From NCBI GenBank assembly GCA_028819255.1, contig JAPPMB010000078.1, positions 173,586 through 237,585 of the forward strand: 64,000 nucleotides of DNA. Direction: 5' to 3'. Below, piece after piece: positions 40,978-51,028 of this stretch. The notes under the pieces are model-generated. The model saw only the letters and a list, made by a program, of their open reading frames with translations. It was not told where the DNA came from and ran no database searches. Position 1 is the first letter of the stretch. Every line of letters begins with the position of its first letter. The stretch comes from Bryobacterales bacterium. Lineage in GTDB: Bacteria > Acidobacteriota > Terriglobia > Bryobacterales > UBA6623. A program made the position numbers and the translations under genes.

Positions 40978-42336
40978 TCACTGCGGCGGTCTGGCTGCAC
41001 TGCCCGGGGCGGCCACCGGCATCTGGGCTCCCACCCTTTCCCGCCAAGCTACGAGATCGGCTCGCAGCCTTGCGGCCAGTTCCGGCCTGCTGCTCGACAG
41101 GTTCTTCGTCTCGGAGATGTCGGACTCCAGATCGAACAGCTCGAAGTCGGTGTCGCGGCCCGCTATCGAGCCCTCGAACCACTCGATCAGCTTGTAGTGT
41201 CCCTGGCGAATGGCTCCCGCAGGCGGCATGCCGGACCCTCGATGGTAGTGGGGGTAATGCCAGTACAGCGCTCGGCCGAGTCCGGCCTGGCCGCCCTTGA
41301 GGATGTCAAGGAAGCTCTCGCCGTCGACTCCGGCGGGCGTCCCCGGATCGCCCAGGATTTCCAGGAAGGTCGGAAGAAAGTCCACGGTGGATAGCAGGTG
41401 GTCCGTCGTCGTGCCCGGTTCGACGCGACCCGGCCAGCGAACAATCAGCGGGACTCGGATGCCGCCCTCGTACAGCCAGCCCTTTCCGGAGCGCAGCGGA
41501 TCCTGTCGCGCGTAGGTCTCCTTGCCGCCGTTGTCGGAGTAGAAGACGACCATGGTCGTCGTCCGCAGGCCGAGTTCGTCGATCTTCGCCAGGAGCTGTC
41601 CGACGCCGTCGTCCAGGCGCTCGACGATGGCGGCGAGCGCAGGCAGGATCTCCAGCTTCTCAATGAGCGCCCGCCCCTCGTAGGAGGCGGTCCGCCTGCG
41701 ACTCTCGATGATCGGCTCGTGGATGGAATTGTGGGGCAGGTAGAGGAAGAACGGCTGGTCTCCGTGTTCCTCAAGGAAGCGGACGGCATGGTCCGTGATC
41801 CGCTGCACATTGTGAGGATCGACTTCCGGATCGCTCTCACCGACGATCGGCTTGTAGGTCACCAGGACTTCATCGAACCCCTGCTTGTCGGGATTGAACG
41901 GCAGGCTGTCGGGAGGACGCTTGTCCTGGCTGAGGTGCCATTTTCCGAAGTGCGCCGTCCGGTAGCCGTTGCGCTTGAAGACCTCTGCCAGCGTCACGAT
42001 CTCCAGGTCGAGGCGTTTGTGCCAGTCAGGCTGCCGCAGCGGCTTGCCGACGGGATTCGAACCCCTGATGTGATCGGTCAGGTGCAGCCGCGCTGGGTAC
42101 TGGCCGCTCATCAGCGCGGCGCGGGTGGGCGAGCACACCGCGGCTGCGGAGTAGGCGTTCGTGAACCGCAGCCCCTCCGAAGCGAGCCGGTCAATGTTGG
42201 GCGTGCGGTAGGCGGCGCCTCCATACGCACCCACCTGGCTCCATCCCAAGTCGTCGGCCAGTACGAAAACGACGTTCGGTCTTGCTTCCGCGAAGCCCGA
42301 GGCGGCGAGAACAAGGACCAGCGCAAGCGGCCGCAC
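40978..42336 (-). CDS. Sulfatase (arylsulfatase family), secreted
   Basis: ARPNVVFVLADDLGWSQVGAYGG; AVCSPTRAALMSGQYPARL (CxPxR); HFGKWHLSQ. Start placed at GTG 42336 by signal peptide. Confidence 0.93.
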   Translation of the reverse strand: MRPLALVLVLAASGFAEARPNVVFVLADDLGWSQVGAYGGAAYRTPNIDRLASEGLRFTNAYSAAAVCSPTRAALMSGQYPARLHLTDHIRGSNPVGKPLRQPDWHKRLDLEIVTLAEVFKRNGYRTAHFGKWHLSQDKRPPDSLPFNPDKQGFDEVLVTYKPIVGESDPEVDPHNVQRITDHAVRFLEEHGDQPFFLYLPHNSIHEPIIESRRRTASYEGRALIEKLEILPALAAIVERLDDGVGQLLAKIDELGLRTTTMVVFYSDNGGKETYARQDPLRSGKGWLYEGGIRVPLIVRWPGRVEPGTTTDHLLSTVDFLPTFLEILGDPGTPAGVDGESFLDILKGGQAGLGRALYWHYPHYHRGSGMPPAGAIRQGHYKLIEWFEGSIAGRDTDFELFDLESDISETKNLSSSRPELAARLRADLVAWRERVGAQMPVAAPGSAARPPQ

Positions 42337-42449
42337 GGCGGCAAGTATACCGAGGTCTGAGTGTTCCGGCGGCCGTCCCGGACATGCGGTCGGATGGCCG
42401 GGGGGACGGAGCCGCGGCAGGTGACCGGCCGGCCCGGTGATTCCTCCGC

Positions 42450-44186
42450 CTATCGCCTGCTGACGTCGACCTGCCACGGACCCGTGACTTCCGAGCCGAT
42501 TTCCAGCCTGGCCTCAAACGTGCCGTCTCCGGGCCGCAGCGCCACTCCCTCGAAGCGCACCTGCGTGGCCCCTTCCGCAACCGCGGCCGTCTCCGTGGCG
42601 TCCCCGAACGCGATCGATGCCGCACCCGAGGCCGGAGCGGGTTTCGCGAACCGCACCTCGATGTCGTAAGGACCCTCGGACATGCTGGTGACCTCCCAGT
42701 GGCCCAGCACCCTGTCGTTGCGCCCCCAGCCGTCCTGCGTGACCATTCGCCAGTCTTGGCGGGTCAGCGTGACGTGCGGCTGCGCATCGCTGCCCAGAGC
42801 GAACCGCACGGCATCGAAGCCGCGGCTCGCAGACACGTCCGCGAGCCATTCCTCGTAGCCGGCCTTCAGGCGCTGGACCACGTCCGGCAATTCCGCCGCC
42901 AGGTCGGTTGCCTCTCCCGGGTCCTCAATGAGGTCGTATAGCTCGACCGGGGCGTCCGGCGGGGCGGGCCGGCTGAAGCTGAGCGCCTGGACCAGCTTGT
43001 ACCGCTGCTCGACCGCGGCGAAGGCCCGATACCGTTCCGGCGCATTGCCCCTGTGCGCCTGAACGAAGTAGGTCCGCTCCGGGAGCGACGTGACCTCGCC
43101 CTCCCACAGCGGCAGGAGGTTGATCCCGTCGACCTCGATCTCCGGCGGCTTGGCAACCCCGGCTGCCGCGAGCAGTGTCGGCGTGATGTCGATGTGGGCG
43201 CCCATCTGGTCGATCTTTGCCGGTGCAAGCCGGTCAGACCACCGGACTAGGAAGGGGACCCGAATGCCGTTGTCGTACACGCTGCCCTTCTGCGCCCGGA
43301 GACCGGCGTGGTAGAGGCGCGTCGTCGGCCCGTTGTCGGTCATGAAGATGAAGACCGTGTTCCCGGAAAGGCCGATGGAGTCCAGGTGGTGCGCCAGCTT
43401 TCCGACATTCTCGTCGATGTTCGTGATCATGCCGTAGATCCGCGCGTCCTTGTCTGACAGGCCCTGGCGGGCGTAGGGCTCGCGATAGGAGTCGGGCACC
43501 AGGTAGGGGGAATGCGGCGCGTTGGTGGGAATGTAGGCGAAGAACGGCGTCTCGCCTCCTTCGCCGATCCAGCTGATGGCCTCGTCGAAGTAGATGTCCG
43601 TGCAGTACCCCTCGTACTGCCGCTCCACGCCGTTGTGCATCAGAATCGGGTTGAAGTAGTCCGTTCCCTCCGGGTCGGACGGCTGGCCGATTCCGCCGCC
43701 CTTGTGGACGACCGATTCCTGGAACCCCTGGTCGACCGTCCTCTGAGGGTGGTTGTCGCCCAGATGCCACTTGCCGAAGATCCCGGTGCGGTAGCCGGCC
43801 TCGCCGAGCATCTCCGCGATCGTGACCTCCGCCGGGTCCATCATGGCCCGCCCGAGATAGGTGTCCACCACGCCTGTCCGGTAGTTGTAGCGGCCCGTCA
43901 TCAGCGCGGCTCGGGTCGGGGCGCACACGGGCGACACGTAGAAGCGGGTCATCTCGACACTCTCTCCCGCCAGGGTGTCAAGATTCGGGGTCTGCAGGAC
44001 GGGGTCGCCGTGAGAGCCGAGTTGGGACCAGCCCTGATCGTCGGTCATGATCAGGACGATGTTCGGTCTGCCGGCGGCATGCTCCACAGAGTCGCCGCAT
44101 GAGGCGAGCAGGCCCGCGAGGAGCACGATGTACGGGGCTGGTTTCCACACAGAAACAGCCTGACGCACCGCCAGGGCGGGAGTCAA
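42450..44186 (-). CDS. Sulfatase (arylsulfatase family) with C-terminal beta-domain, lipoprotein-type signal
   Basis: LLAGLLASCGDS lipobox; RPNIVLIMTDDQGWSQLGSHG; SPVCAPTRAALMTGRYNYRTG; GIFGKWHLGDNHPQ. Confidence 0.93.
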   Translation of the reverse strand: MTPALAVRQAVSVWKPAPYIVLLAGLLASCGDSVEHAAGRPNIVLIMTDDQGWSQLGSHGDPVLQTPNLDTLAGESVEMTRFYVSPVCAPTRAALMTGRYNYRTGVVDTYLGRAMMDPAEVTIAEMLGEAGYRTGIFGKWHLGDNHPQRTVDQGFQESVVHKGGGIGQPSDPEGTDYFNPILMHNGVERQYEGYCTDIYFDEAISWIGEGGETPFFAYIPTNAPHSPYLVPDSYREPYARQGLSDKDARIYGMITNIDENVGKLAHHLDSIGLSGNTVFIFMTDNGPTTRLYHAGLRAQKGSVYDNGIRVPFLVRWSDRLAPAKIDQMGAHIDITPTLLAAAGVAKPPEIEVDGINLLPLWEGEVTSLPERTYFVQAHRGNAPERYRAFAAVEQRYKLVQALSFSRPAPPDAPVELYDLIEDPGEATDLAAELPDVVQRLKAGYEEWLADVSASRGFDAVRFALGSDAQPHVTLTRQDWRMVTQDGWGRNDRVLGHWEVTSMSEGPYDIEVRFAKPAPASGAASIAFGDATETAAVAEGATQVRFEGVALRPGDGTFEARLEIGSEVTGPWQVDVSRR

Positions 44187-46257: not shown

Positions 46258-47193
46258 GATATTTCCCAGTTTCTCACGGCTCCTGATGCCCTGGCTTCGA
46301 TGCGCTCTCGGGATCTCCGCCGAACTGGTTCCGGCTGTGTCAGGACGGTTGACGCATTTCGACGGAATCCGGTTCAATGTGGCTACATGATCCAGGTCCG
46401 AACCGGCAAGGAGTACTTTCGCCAGACTAGGCCAACGTCGAGACTCGGAAAGGGACGAGATCCTACGCTGTGAGGCCGCCGTTGAGCGGCTCCGCGAGAA
46501 TCACGAAAGCCCTGGACTCCACCTTGAGCGACTCGGGAGCGCGTCCTAGAATCACTGGTTGATCCGGGCTTCCGGGAAACTGCGCGTGATCCTCGCTCCC
46601 GCCTCGGTGCGAGGTGTCCTGCGGGTGTGCGTTGCGCTTAACATGGAGTGCCACGGCACAATGTATGCGTGGTCGCGGCGACAGGGCTTCACACGAATCT
46701 CTATGATGCGGCGTTTGTCAATAGGGAGGCCTACCCCAGGAACGTAGGCAACGGCTCGGGTCCGGAGGACCTGCGGAAGCTCTGGATGCTGATCAGCAGG
46801 ATGCGCTTGTCCATGGCTCAGCTACCACGGTATCCGGCAGAGCGTCAGTGCCAAGACCGGTATGGTGTTTGTGGTGCCTTGTGGCGCTTCGACGTCAAAT
46901 GGCAAGCCGTGGCAACCTGGGCTCCGAGCCCAGGGACAATTTGGACGGTCTTCGCTCCTATTGAGCGATGGCCGCATTCCGGACCCAAGTCGGACCGAGG
47001 GCAGGACAGCAAACGTGAAGGGCGTGGAACTCGGAGCGGACGCCATGCAGATCGCCATGAGGCACACATGTCCTGACAATAGAATGGTCTCGCCTGCCTA
47101 GTGCCGATCCGGCAGCAGGCATTGCTCCGGCGTACGAGGAGGCACCACTGCGCGAATTTCAGAGCCAGCTCACAGTGTGACCGAACGCGTGCC

Positions 47194-47211
47194 GCGGTGG
47201 TCGACCACCGC
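47194..47211. repeat. Perfect 18-bp palindrome at the 3' end of the NYN gene
   Basis: GCGGTGGTCGACCACCGC is its own reverse complement; 11 nt beyond the NYN gene stop. Confidence 0.9.
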
Positions 47212-47222
47212 AACGTTCACGA

Positions 47223-48734
47223 TCAGGCCTTCGGAATAATCCAATCCTCAATCAACCGCTTTTCCTTGGGGCTCAATTTCACGTGGGAAGTATCAACCAG
47301 TTTGGATATATTGGACCCAAAAGACCTCGCTAGATCAACCATTTTAAGGCCTTGGTACTCTTCCAAGTTAAGACGCTCATTTTGTAGACGACGGAGGATA
47401 AACTGGATCGCTTTTCGGCTGACGGAATATCCTTCTTTGACTATTCGGTCACGAACATCCTTTGATGTCGTGTTTACATGGAAAAAACCTTGCGATGACA
47501 CTGATTCTAGGATGACTTCAAAAATACGGAAATAGACTTTTGATTTGAGTGGAGGAACATTGTAATTCCTATGAAGTCGCTCAACAAACTCATGTAGATC
47601 GGCATCGTCTCTACTGACCAGATAATCCCTACTCGACTCATCCGATGGTAGTGGCGGCTCATGGCGCTTAGGATCCCAGATAACGTCGTGACTTCCCATT
47701 TTGGTGTATTCTAGCCCAATCCTCCCTACAAAATCCGTGATGAACGAGCCGAAATTTGGAAATCCGAACCATGCTTGGCTGGGAAATCGTTGCTGCAGAG
47801 AATGGGCCAAGGTTGCACCGGGCACAGGTTGGGTCGCATGTGATACTTCGGATTTGATGAATCGATCAATCTCCTCGACGACATCGGGACTACGTGAATC
47901 GGGACTACGTGAGCCAATCACGGTGAGATCGCGCAATTCAACAGACCAAGATTTGTCGCTTCGCTCCACAAGTTTCAGTCTTTGATTCTGGCTTACTAAG
48001 GCCTTAACAAAGGCGATTAAACTGTAGAATCCATACCAGTTGCTGTCCGGAAAATCAGCTTGATTCCTAAATATCGAGTGGATTAGGTAGCTACGAAGAG
48101 ATCCACCTTTCCGAGCAATTGAGTCTTCCAATTTCTCAACAAGCTGCCTAAGTCGATGCTGATCATGCGCATCTATATTTTCTCCAAAGGCATGAGTTTC
48201 CAGCGCCTGTGCTACAAAATCATCAGACTCAATTACAGTATCTGCGATTTGAGTATATGCTTTTGAGGCGTCGCTTGGCGTAATTACCATCAATCTTCGG
48301 TCAAATCGTCTAAGTCGGAGCAGGACAGGCGAAAAATCAGAATCTGCAGACATTATAATGAATTCCTCGAAGGAGGGGTTCTGTTCTAAGGCATCGATGA
48401 TATCAAGGACCATGTGAATATCTGCAGAACTCTTACCCTGTGCTGTCAATGATGGACAGTCAACGACCTCGAAGGCAGAGCGCACAAAATCAATGCGAAA
48501 CCGCGAAAATGATGCAGGGTTCAAATAGCATTTCCTTAGAATTACTCGTCGACTGATGTCAGAATTGATCCTATCATTAGGGATTCGAGAAATCCAGTCC
48601 AACCATCGATTTGGATTCGTCGCAAAATAGTAAGCGGTCTTCTCTCCATAGTCATGCTGCAATCCAAGAAATATGTTATCGAAGTCCACGAATACAGCTG
48701 ATCGTAACGGCTCGTTATGGGTTGGTATCTGCAT
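47223..48734 (-). CDS. NYN (LabA/DUF88 PIN-like) domain protein with OST-HTH/LOTUS-like domains, AT-rich
   Basis: SAVFVDFDNIFLGLQ; SSADIHMVLDIIDALE; FIIMSADSDFSPVLLRLRRFDRRLMVITPSDAS (NYN motifs); VPGATLAHSLQQRFPSQAWFGFPNFGSFITDFVGRI (OST-HTH-like). Confidence 0.88.
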   Translation of the reverse strand: MQIPTHNEPLRSAVFVDFDNIFLGLQHDYGEKTAYYFATNPNRWLDWISRIPNDRINSDISRRVILRKCYLNPASFSRFRIDFVRSAFEVVDCPSLTAQGKSSADIHMVLDIIDALEQNPSFEEFIIMSADSDFSPVLLRLRRFDRRLMVITPSDASKAYTQIADTVIESDDFVAQALETHAFGENIDAHDQHRLRQLVEKLEDSIARKGGSLRSYLIHSIFRNQADFPDSNWYGFYSLIAFVKALVSQNQRLKLVERSDKSWSVELRDLTVIGSRSPDSRSPDVVEEIDRFIKSEVSHATQPVPGATLAHSLQQRFPSQAWFGFPNFGSFITDFVGRIGLEYTKMGSHDVIWDPKRHEPPLPSDESSRDYLVSRDDADLHEFVERLHRNYNVPPLKSKVYFRIFEVILESVSSQGFFHVNTTSKDVRDRIVKEGYSVSRKAIQFILRRLQNERLNLEEYQGLKMVDLARSFGSNISKLVDTSHVKLSPKEKRLIEDWIIPKA

Positions 48735-48774
48735 GCTAAGGTGGTTAGAGTTGTCTGGAAAGCCGACTGAGGGA

Positions 48775-48803
48775 ATCATACACCAATGTAATGTCTTTGT
48801 CAA
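48775..48803 (-). promoter_or_regulatory. Near-consensus sigma70 promoter for the NYN gene
   Basis: On the minus strand TTGACA - 17 nt - TATGAT (-35 at 48803-48798, -10 at 48780-48775), about 40 bp upstream of ATG 48734. Confidence 0.75.
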
Positions 48804-49480
48804 TAACCGTTCGGACGATGGGTGGAGGAAGTCCCTGATTGGCGTACAGCTGAATGTAGACGGCCGGACGTTCAGTGGGTGTTTGTGCTACAGAACAGAC
48901 GTGCGGGCTAATGTTCCGATCGGAAGGGAGGGGGTACCGGCCACGGGTATGGTCGGACGCGCTGTCGACGCGGCCTGCCGGAGCTGTGAATTGCTGGCGG
49001 GGGCCTTGCTGCGGTCCGAGGCGGAAGTACGGTGGATGGAGTCGCTGCAGGGGCAGTTGGAGAGAGCAGCAGGCACAGCGGGCTTACACGGCGGAGCGGG
49101 AGGAGCGCCCGTGGCAGGCGGAGGAGAACCACGGACACGAGTTGGCCAGAGCCTGCAGAATGGCAGAGGGACTCAGACCCGTGCATTGTGCCCACGTGCA
49201 GGGAGAACAAGCGGGCCGCAGTCTTGGCCAATTCCCGGTAGGGAAGGACCGGGACCGAGAGGAATCCGGGAGGGCCGCTTACGGGCTGGACGCAGAGTCC
49301 GGTGTCCGTGTCACGGGAGCCGAGCAGATTCTGAGAATCATCAAGGGCGATCAACTCGGCAGGACGCCTTCTGCCCGCCGGTGCGCAATCGTGCGCTTCG
49401 GCCGCGCCCTCGAGTGCCCCGCGAATCGCAGGCCAGGCGGTTTGGAATTCGCCTGGAACCGATGTACGGTGTAGGTCTTG

Positions 49481-51028
49481 ATGGCTAAGCGTCTCCTGCC
49501 GATCGGTATCCAGACGTTCCGCAAGCTCCGCAAGCGGAACTACTACTACGTGGACAAGACTCCATACGCCATGCAGCTGATCGGCGAGGGAACACATTAT
49601 TTCCTGTCGCGCCCGCGACGGTTCGGCAAGAGCCTCTTTCTCGACACGCTCAAGGCGCTGTTTGAAGGCAGGCGGGAACTGTTCCAGGGCCTGCACGCCC
49701 ACGGGGACTGGGAATGGTCCGTGCGCCATCCGGTCGTGCGGCTCGATTTCAGCGGCGGCGATTTCGAGGAGCGTGGCTACTTGCGCACGAACCTGATGGC
49801 GCAACTCGACGCCATCGAGGAGGAAGCCGGCATCCGCACGCGCTACGACACAGGCCCGGAGCGGCTCGCCGACCTCATCCGCGGTCTCCACCGGCAGAGC
49901 GGCCGGGGTGTCGCGGTGCTGGTGGACGAGTACGACAAGCCGATCTTGGATGCATTGGACGTGCCGGAAATCGCGCGCGCAAACCGGAACTACCTGCGCG
50001 GCCTGTATGCCGTTCTCAAGTCCTGCGATGCGCAGATCCGCTTCTGCATGCTCACCGGAGTCAGCAGGTTCTCCAAGGTGAGCCTGTTTTCGGGGCTGAA
50101 CAACCTCATCGACATTACGCTCGAGCCGGCTTACTCGTCCATTTGCGGCTACACGGAGAGCGACTTGGACGATGTCTTCGCAGCCGAACTGGAGGGGCTC
50201 GACCGGGACCGTGTCCGCGACTGGTACAACGGCTACAGCTGGGGGGGCGTCGAGAAGGTCTACAACCCTTTCGACGCGCTGCTGCTGTTCCGCAAGCGTA
50301 CGTTCAGCGCGTGGTGGTTCGAGACCGCCACGCCCACGTTCCTGGTGGAGACACTCGTCAAGCGCGGCATCGCGACCGCGTCCTTGGACGGCAGGCTCGC
50401 GAGCGAGAAGCTGCTCGGCACCTTCGACGTGGGACGGATCGCCACGGAGGCGCTGCTGTTCCAGACCGGTTACCTCACGATCCAAGGCCAAGAGGACCGG
50501 CTAGGGAAGCACTACTACCGCTTGGGATATCCGAACCGGGAGGTGCGCGAGAGCCTCAACGAAAGCCTGGTCGATTACCTGACTGGGGACGATCCCGAAC
50601 GGGAGACGAACGCCATGCGACTCGGCGACCTGCTGCTGAAGGCCGATTTCGCGGGCCTGGAACGGCTGTTCCGGGCCATGTACGCTGGCATACCTTACGA
50701 ATGGCACATTCGCAACGAGATCGCGCGCTTCGAGGGGTACTACGCCAGCGTGTTCTACTCGTACTTCGCCGGGCTCGGGCTGGAGGTGAGAGTGGAGGAA
50801 AGCGGCAGCGCCGGGCGGCTGGACATGGCGGTGCGGGCGGGCGGCAGGGTGTTCCTGTTCGAGTTCAAGGTGCTGGAGCGATCCGGGCCTGGAGCGGCGA
50901 TGGCGCAGCTGAAGGAGCGGGGCTACGCGGACAAGTACCGCCACTTGGGCGAGCCGGTGCATCTGGTGGCGGTGGAGTTCAGCGCGAAGACGAGGAACAT
51001 CGCCGGGTTCGAGACGGCACAAGCCTGA
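49481..51028 (+). CDS. AAA-ATPase-like (PF09820-type) protein with C-terminal PD-(D/E)XK nuclease-like domain (PF08011-type)
   Basis: LPIGIQTFRKLRKRNYYYVDKTPYAMQLIGEGTHYFLSRPRRFGKSLFLDTLKALFEG; VLVDEYDKPILDAL; GRLDMAVRAGGRVFLFEFKVLE (D...ExK). Confidence 0.93.
   Translation: MAKRLLPIGIQTFRKLRKRNYYYVDKTPYAMQLIGEGTHYFLSRPRRFGKSLFLDTLKALFEGRRELFQGLHAHGDWEWSVRHPVVRLDFSGGDFEERGYLRTNLMAQLDAIEEEAGIRTRYDTGPERLADLIRGLHRQSGRGVAVLVDEYDKPILDALDVPEIARANRNYLRGLYAVLKSCDAQIRFCMLTGVSRFSKVSLFSGLNNLIDITLEPAYSSICGYTESDLDDVFAAELEGLDRDRVRDWYNGYSWGGVEKVYNPFDALLLFRKRTFSAWWFETATPTFLVETLVKRGIATASLDGRLASEKLLGTFDVGRIATEALLFQTGYLTIQGQEDRLGKHYYRLGYPNREVRESLNESLVDYLTGDDPERETNAMRLGDLLLKADFAGLERLFRAMYAGIPYEWHIRNEIARFEGYYASVFYSYFAGLGLEVRVEESGSAGRLDMAVRAGGRVFLFEFKVLERSGPGAAMAQLKERGYADKYRHLGEPVHLVAVEFSAKTRNIAGFETAQA

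Follow-up and report, generated by a model that had tools for sequence, protein, structure and literature searches.

We examined a 64-kb stretch of DNA from a Bryobacterales bacterium (hereafter the window), in which a minus-strand gene encodes a putative multidomain nuclease of the NYN type with two LOTUS-like winged helices and a candidate ROQ-like domain (Table 1). The open reading frame (ORF) that contains it extends from 47223 to 48803 and holds 526 codons when read from its TTG, or 503 amino acids when read from an ATG at 48734. The latter, with its stop codon, matches the 504-codon ORF of the original prediction and agrees with the start positions of relatives. The AT-richness noted there is equally clear: the guanine–cytosine (GC) content of the gene is 44.8% against 65.6% for the window, bases 48301–48360 contain exactly 25 G/C of 60 and the AT-rich stretch coincides with the ORF, beginning and stopping at its ends when followed in 100-bp steps. 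At third codon positions the GC content is 0.438. Of six neighbouring genes for which it was measured, five have values of 0.79–0.87; the remaining value came from an incomplete piece, read out of frame order, and is uninformative. The proposed TTGACA-N17-TATGAT promoter, of the sigma-70 type, is present and is the sole TTGACA/TATAAT-like site in the 64 kb when both strands are considered, allowing at most two mismatches to these boxes and a spacing of 16–18 bp. The host genome carries a second copy of the gene (G000:C39:74629-76194), with 78% protein and 81% DNA identity, for which the corresponding promoter reads ATGACG-N17-TATAAT. The unit common to both copies starts at the −35 box and ends about 176 bp past the stop codon.

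Table 1. Features of the NYN gene and its immediate surroundings in the window.
Feature	Position	Strand	Basis or remark
Near-consensus promoter TTGACA-N17-TATGAT	48775..48803	-	Homology to the second copy starts at its -35 box
Gene for NYN-LOTUS-LOTUS-ROQ-like protein, 503 aa + stop	47223..48734	-	Preferred ATG start; ORF reaches TTG at 48803
NYN (PIN-like) nuclease domain, residues 1-180	48195..48734	-	Pfam PF01936, E 3.4e-17
First LOTUS/OST-HTH-like winged helix (predicted), residues 189-267	47934..48170	-	Profile-profile and model; absent in shorter relatives L154, L164, L168, L169
Second LOTUS/OST-HTH-like winged helix (predicted), residues 283-353	47676..47888	-	Profile-profile and model
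Candidate C-terminal ROQ-like domain, residues 366-503, motif TSKxVRDRC...SRxxVxFVLRGL...W(I/L)	47226..47639	-	Conserved alignment, AlphaFold2 model, Foldseek
3' non-coding tail common to both host copies	47047..47222	-	Last ~90 bp ~93% identical by eye, against 81% for the whole unit
Remnant, first codons of AAA-ATPase_like/PDDEXK_9 gene	46772..46837	-	
Sequence elsewhere found 3' of another AAA-ATPase_like copy in the host genome	48804..48871	+	
Intact AAA-ATPase_like + PDDEXK_9 gene	49478..51028	+	PF09820 E 2e-60, PF08011 E 4e-18; neighbour, outside the unit

Translation probably begins at ATG 48734. This codon is favoured because the TTG start of the ORF coincides with the −35 box and because relatives begin about 5–20 residues ahead of the FVDFDN motif. 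The choice over an upstream start is not certain, and two observations tell against it. When the two host copies are compared, silent changes outnumber replacements in the 23 codons upstream of this ATG, and upstream of the equivalent position in the second copy there is an ATG with a Shine–Dalgarno-like stretch.

The NYN domain had been recognized in the original prediction from its motifs, and the Pfam match bears this out. Asp17, Asp19, Asn20, Asp105, Asp111, Asp131 and Asp133 are invariant across 59 aligned relatives, in which the acidic motifs FVDFDN, SADI and SADSDF are conserved, and profile–profile comparison aligns equivalent motifs with those of generic NYN-OST-HTH proteins. Foldseek matched the domain to VPA0982 (2qip, E 7e-7) and to the NYN domain of MARF1 (5yaa, E 1.5e-5; also 6fdl), while a sequence search of solved structures returned 2qip only. 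Sequence and fold both place the protein in the NYN/PIN-like ribonuclease (RNase) superfamily, with its acidic residues conserved. The NYN domain of MARF1 cuts single-stranded RNA and has an active site made up of Asp358, Asp426, Asp427 and Asp452 (PMC6294520). Judged from its residues and predicted fold, the protein described here is likely to cleave RNA as well.

Behind the nuclease, where one LOTUS-like domain and possibly a second had been proposed, two such winged helices appear to be present. The Pfam OST-HTH model has no match in any of 44 family members; in our reference set of NYN-OST-HTH proteins it is found in 13 of 14. The profile-based comparison (hhalign) nevertheless aligned the family with such proteins across all three domains with a probability of 99 and an E value of 1e-18, a score that includes the contribution of NYN; the second LOTUS-like unit scored alone gave a probability of 36 and an E value of 4e-4. 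The full-length AlphaFold2 model has two winged-helix-like units after the NYN domain, with a mean predicted local distance difference test score (pLDDT) of 86 and a predicted template-modelling score (pTM) of 0.48. Given this pTM, the relative placement of the domains is not fixed by the model. The assignment of two LOTUS-like units is thus supported by profiles and by modelling, and the architecture fits the NYN-OST-HTH (LK-nuclease) family, in which one or two OST-HTH/LOTUS domains stand behind the nuclease.

The C-terminal region of about 130 amino acids left unassigned by the original prediction comprises 138 residues and is conserved throughout the family alignment, its conserved residues including K60, R63 and R75 by fragment numbering. 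It matches no Pfam family, gave only noise against the sequences of solved structures, found no match in a viral fold library and is unrelated to the generic NYN-LOTUS proteins compared. Among 297 genomes of the phylum it occurs solely in the family's own proteins. Its AlphaFold2 model has a pLDDT of 90.6 and a pTM of 0.86, and the top 21 Foldseek matches in the PDB are all ROQ domains of the Roquin family (probability 0.98–1.00, template-modelling scores of 0.57–0.65 by query length, E 0.04–0.3). ROQ matches were also recovered in a separate search with the full-length model. The predicted fold is closest to ROQ, with a template-modelling score of about 0.6, which makes the C-terminus a candidate ROQ-like winged helix; in view of the Foldseek E values the likeness is suggestive rather than proven.

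Horizontal acquisition, also part of the original prediction, is well supported by the foreign composition, the absence of the gene elsewhere in the order, the presence of a second copy and a nearest relative in another phylum. Both host copies are AT-rich, the one on C39 lying 0.20 below its flanks in GC content and the one in the window about 0.2 below, while 79 relatives elsewhere have a GC content within 0.09 of their own flanks. A search of 257 genomes of the order (host included) gave no further full-length homologue, and same-genus relatives carry only a generic NYN protein, 24–28% identical over the nuclease domain. Foreign composition and patchy presence are therefore combined in this gene; syntenic homologues with matching composition were not found within the order or genus, and it is the more distant relatives that match their own genomes. 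A single-protein scan of genome contigs gave no match; the relatives there were retrieved with an alignment query (A1), and the family numbers roughly 300 relatives. The nearest found (L154), from a gammaproteobacterial metagenome-assembled genome and not from a member of the Acidobacteriota, is 43% identical overall and 58% in NYN, although long branches around it in the tree leave its exact placement unsure. Plasmids yielded partial, distant homologues only.

Synonymous divergence (dS) between the two host copies is 0.62. Since both copies are also donor-like in composition, this suggests that they diverged before arrival in the host; a recent within-genome duplication is disfavoured on the same grounds. 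For the protein as a whole the ratio of nonsynonymous to synonymous divergence (dN/dS) is 0.195, and for the NYN domain it is 0.058; the protein has therefore been under purifying selection.

The gene is real, acquired and under selection, and it belongs to a NYN-LOTUS subfamily that is widespread but little known and that may carry a ROQ-like module. Our preferred explanation, held tentatively and with a probability of roughly 45%, is that it forms an acquired, self-contained transcription unit for a multidomain endoribonuclease that recognizes structured RNA and that probably serves in defence as a mobile effector or accessory. The unit would be self-contained in having its own promoter, one ORF and a conserved 3′ tail. 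Structured RNA (stem-loops) would be bound by the winged helices together with the ROQ-like domain and presented to the NYN domain, which would cut it in a metal-dependent reaction. Foreign or infection-induced RNA may be the trigger, and the protein might itself be an effector of defence or might serve as a backup or accessory for DNA-level systems such as bacteriophage exclusion (BREX) and restriction–modification, the outcome being degradation of phage transcripts or a more general shutdown.

A defence role is plausible from the neighbourhoods of relatives. Three Accumulibacter loci (L127, L128 and L131) have the order pglZ–brxL–NYN, with brxL on the same strand and gaps of 28–37 bp, and a fourth (L136) has a BrxL remnant before the NYN gene; the order is BrxD–BrxHI–NYN at L129, hsdM–hsdS–AbiD–NYN at L120 and L166 and hsdS–hsdM–Schlafen-type–NYN at L139. 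HsdM lies near the NYN gene on the opposite strand at L142, Dsr1 is 65 bp upstream at L156 and a type III methyltransferase is 46 bp downstream in the closest relative, L154. Weaker neighbour matches are MzaA (L140), a DpdF/GajB-like helicase (L144), ZacB/ZacC-like proteins (L134) and a reverse transcriptase (L167). Within 6 kb, HsdM_N occurs at 4 of 41 loci against 0.40 expected from genome-wide counts (Poisson p 7e-4) and BrxL at 4 of 41 against 0.026 expected; together they neighbour 8 of 41 family loci and 0 of 32 generic NYN-LOTUS loci of the same genomes (Fisher p 0.007), these p-values ignoring shared ancestry and the two families having been picked after they were seen among the neighbours. 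Co-occurrence with defence genes is thus found in many betaproteobacterial relatives, above controls, and at neither host copy. A search for a partner gene shared family-wide found none, the linkages being lineage-specific.

Several points weigh against the defence reading. The linkage comes from relatives at about 26–43% overall identity and not from the window, and no known defence gene lies beside either host copy. Neighbours were scanned at 41 Pseudomonadota loci with uneven coverage, and the proteins of the later scans were picked as promising. The four BrxL cases belong to one genus and L120 and L166 share a near-identical cassette, so that there are fewer independent events than the counts imply. 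The PADLOC models matched the protein weakly (LabA-like NYN PDLC01154, 17.6 bits; HEC-09, 13.8 bits) and do not identify it as a defence protein, these searches found no homologue in phages and viral contigs, and the likeness to ROQ comes from a predicted model with no sequence support. In about nine Chloroflexota loci dinB lies directly downstream of the NYN gene, which suggests another or a broader role. The original idea of a defence gene is therefore supported indirectly, by the surroundings of relatives, but not by those of the host copies, where no defence system is recognizable, or by the dinB loci. In our judgement the protein should not be filed under any named defence system. Searches of open-licence literature for NYN with BREX or antiphage functions returned no paper describing the family.

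A serious possibility, although we incline against it, is a standalone enzyme of RNA decay or RNA quality control, similar to MARF1 or LabA, that travels on mobile DNA and is close to defence genes only passively, through shared islands. An earlier description of bacterial NYN-OST-HTH proteins noted no conserved neighbourhood links with known systems of RNA processing and suggested that these proteins may degrade RNA as standalone enzymes (PMC2848206). The neighbours of many relatives are ordinary, RepB/ParB genes are found among neighbours, and the host copies adjoin AAA-ATPase/PDDEXK_9 genes or remnants instead of defence operons. Such passive closeness accounts less well for a same-strand position tens of bp behind brxL, BrxHI or Dsr1, which exceeds loose island membership, or for the way in which the family differs from generic NYN-LOTUS genes in those genomes.

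The dinB linkage could instead point to a nuclease of DNA metabolism that acts on RNA–DNA hybrids, primers or damage, which we consider improbable. The loci concerned, where dinB encodes DNA polymerase IV, include L094, L095, L096, L101, L105, L114 and L147, some with gaps of 1–8 bp; an ileS-like gene is often found upstream of the NYN gene in Chloroflexota. The PIN/NYN/FEN superfamily includes such enzymes, and numerous further genes linked to the family have DNA as their target (BREX, restriction–modification and helicases). Against this, the closest fold matches are VPA0982 and the NYN domain of MARF1, the latter an RNase (PMC6294520). The LOTUS and ROQ-like domains likewise point to RNA, and the dinB linkage is confined to one phylum in the sample.

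NYN/PIN RNases are common toxins, AbiD precedes the NYN gene in L120 and L166 and a gene for a conserved protein of 128–132 amino acids is tightly coupled downstream in three Acidobacteriota loci (L097:9684-10079, L098:4676-5059 and L150:8788-9171, overlapping NYN in two), but an addiction or abortive-infection toxin with its partner elsewhere is the least probable reading, as no small partner is conserved family-wide or at either host copy and a 500-residue multidomain build is unusual for the toxin of a toxin–antitoxin pair. The AbiD-like genes between hsdS and NYN (L166:6847-7842 and L120:6860-7870), in two betaproteobacterial genomes, are 86% identical.

The host genome has about 22 copies or fragments of the AAA-ATPase_like/PDDEXK_9 gene, and each of the two NYN copies has such a gene or remnant no more than 0.7 kb away (window 46772-46837, 48804-48871 and 49478-51028; L027 10395-10758). 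In the window an N-terminal remnant stands on one side of the NYN unit and an intact copy on the other, while on C39 a C-terminal remnant directly follows. We considered the gene as part of the unit and rejected this, since it is absent from distant homologues, has a host-like composition and is represented by different remnants at the two loci. PADLOC has no model for the intact gene. The 3′ tail contains a hairpin-like inverted repeat within 47047-47140, and a second palindrome, GCGGTGGTCGACCACCGC, lies behind the stop codon; inspection by eye revealed no attC core motifs after the stop codon, and an integron-cassette reading was set aside. Two adjacent sulfatase-like genes, recognized from their translations only, occupy 40978-44186 on the minus strand.

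The functions of bacterial NYN-LOTUS proteins are poorly defined, and the proteins were earlier described as having no informative gene neighbourhoods. A subfamily with a conserved extra domain that is ROQ-like, and that recurs at the end of BREX and restriction–modification operons, suggests concrete hypotheses, namely that the protein cuts RNA, binds stem-loops and contributes to resistance against phages. The subfamily is also relevant to how RNA control by LOTUS and ROQ domains arose in eukaryotes. A bolder proposal, which we regard as unlikely, is that a widespread NYN RNase family with LOTUS domains and a bacterial ROQ-type stem-loop-binding domain constitutes the RNA-level arm of BREX and restriction–modification islands. 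Were it true, one bacterial protein would unite modules that in animals are divided between MARF1/Regnase and Roquin, and a bacterial root for the animal RNA-decay toolkit would be suggested.

Among known systems, PADLOC PDLC01154 (LabA-like NYN nuclease) belongs to the same NYN superfamily, but its match (E 5e-4) covers only part of the NYN domain. The bacterial proteins that combine NYN (LK-nuclease/DUF88) with OST-HTH (LabA-like; Anantharaman et al., 2010, PMC2848206) share the N-terminal NYN domain and acidic motifs and have single or duplicated OST-HTH domains. The present family differs in that its OST-HTH units fall below Pfam detection in all 44 members tested, in a further conserved domain at the C-terminus that the generic proteins used for comparison do not have, and in its frequent linkage to defence genes, which is unreported in that study. 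MARF1 (Limkain b1) is alike in pairing a NYN endoribonuclease with tandem LOTUS domains; the acquired protein is distinguished by having two predicted LOTUS-like units and a candidate ROQ-like end. The ROQ domain of Roquin (RC3H1/2), which in animals binds RNA stem-loops (PMC5031192), resembles the C-terminal 138 residues in predicted fold. Sequence similarity to Roquin is not detectable and no RING or CCCH zinc finger is seen here; the ROQ-like domain is instead fused to a nuclease.
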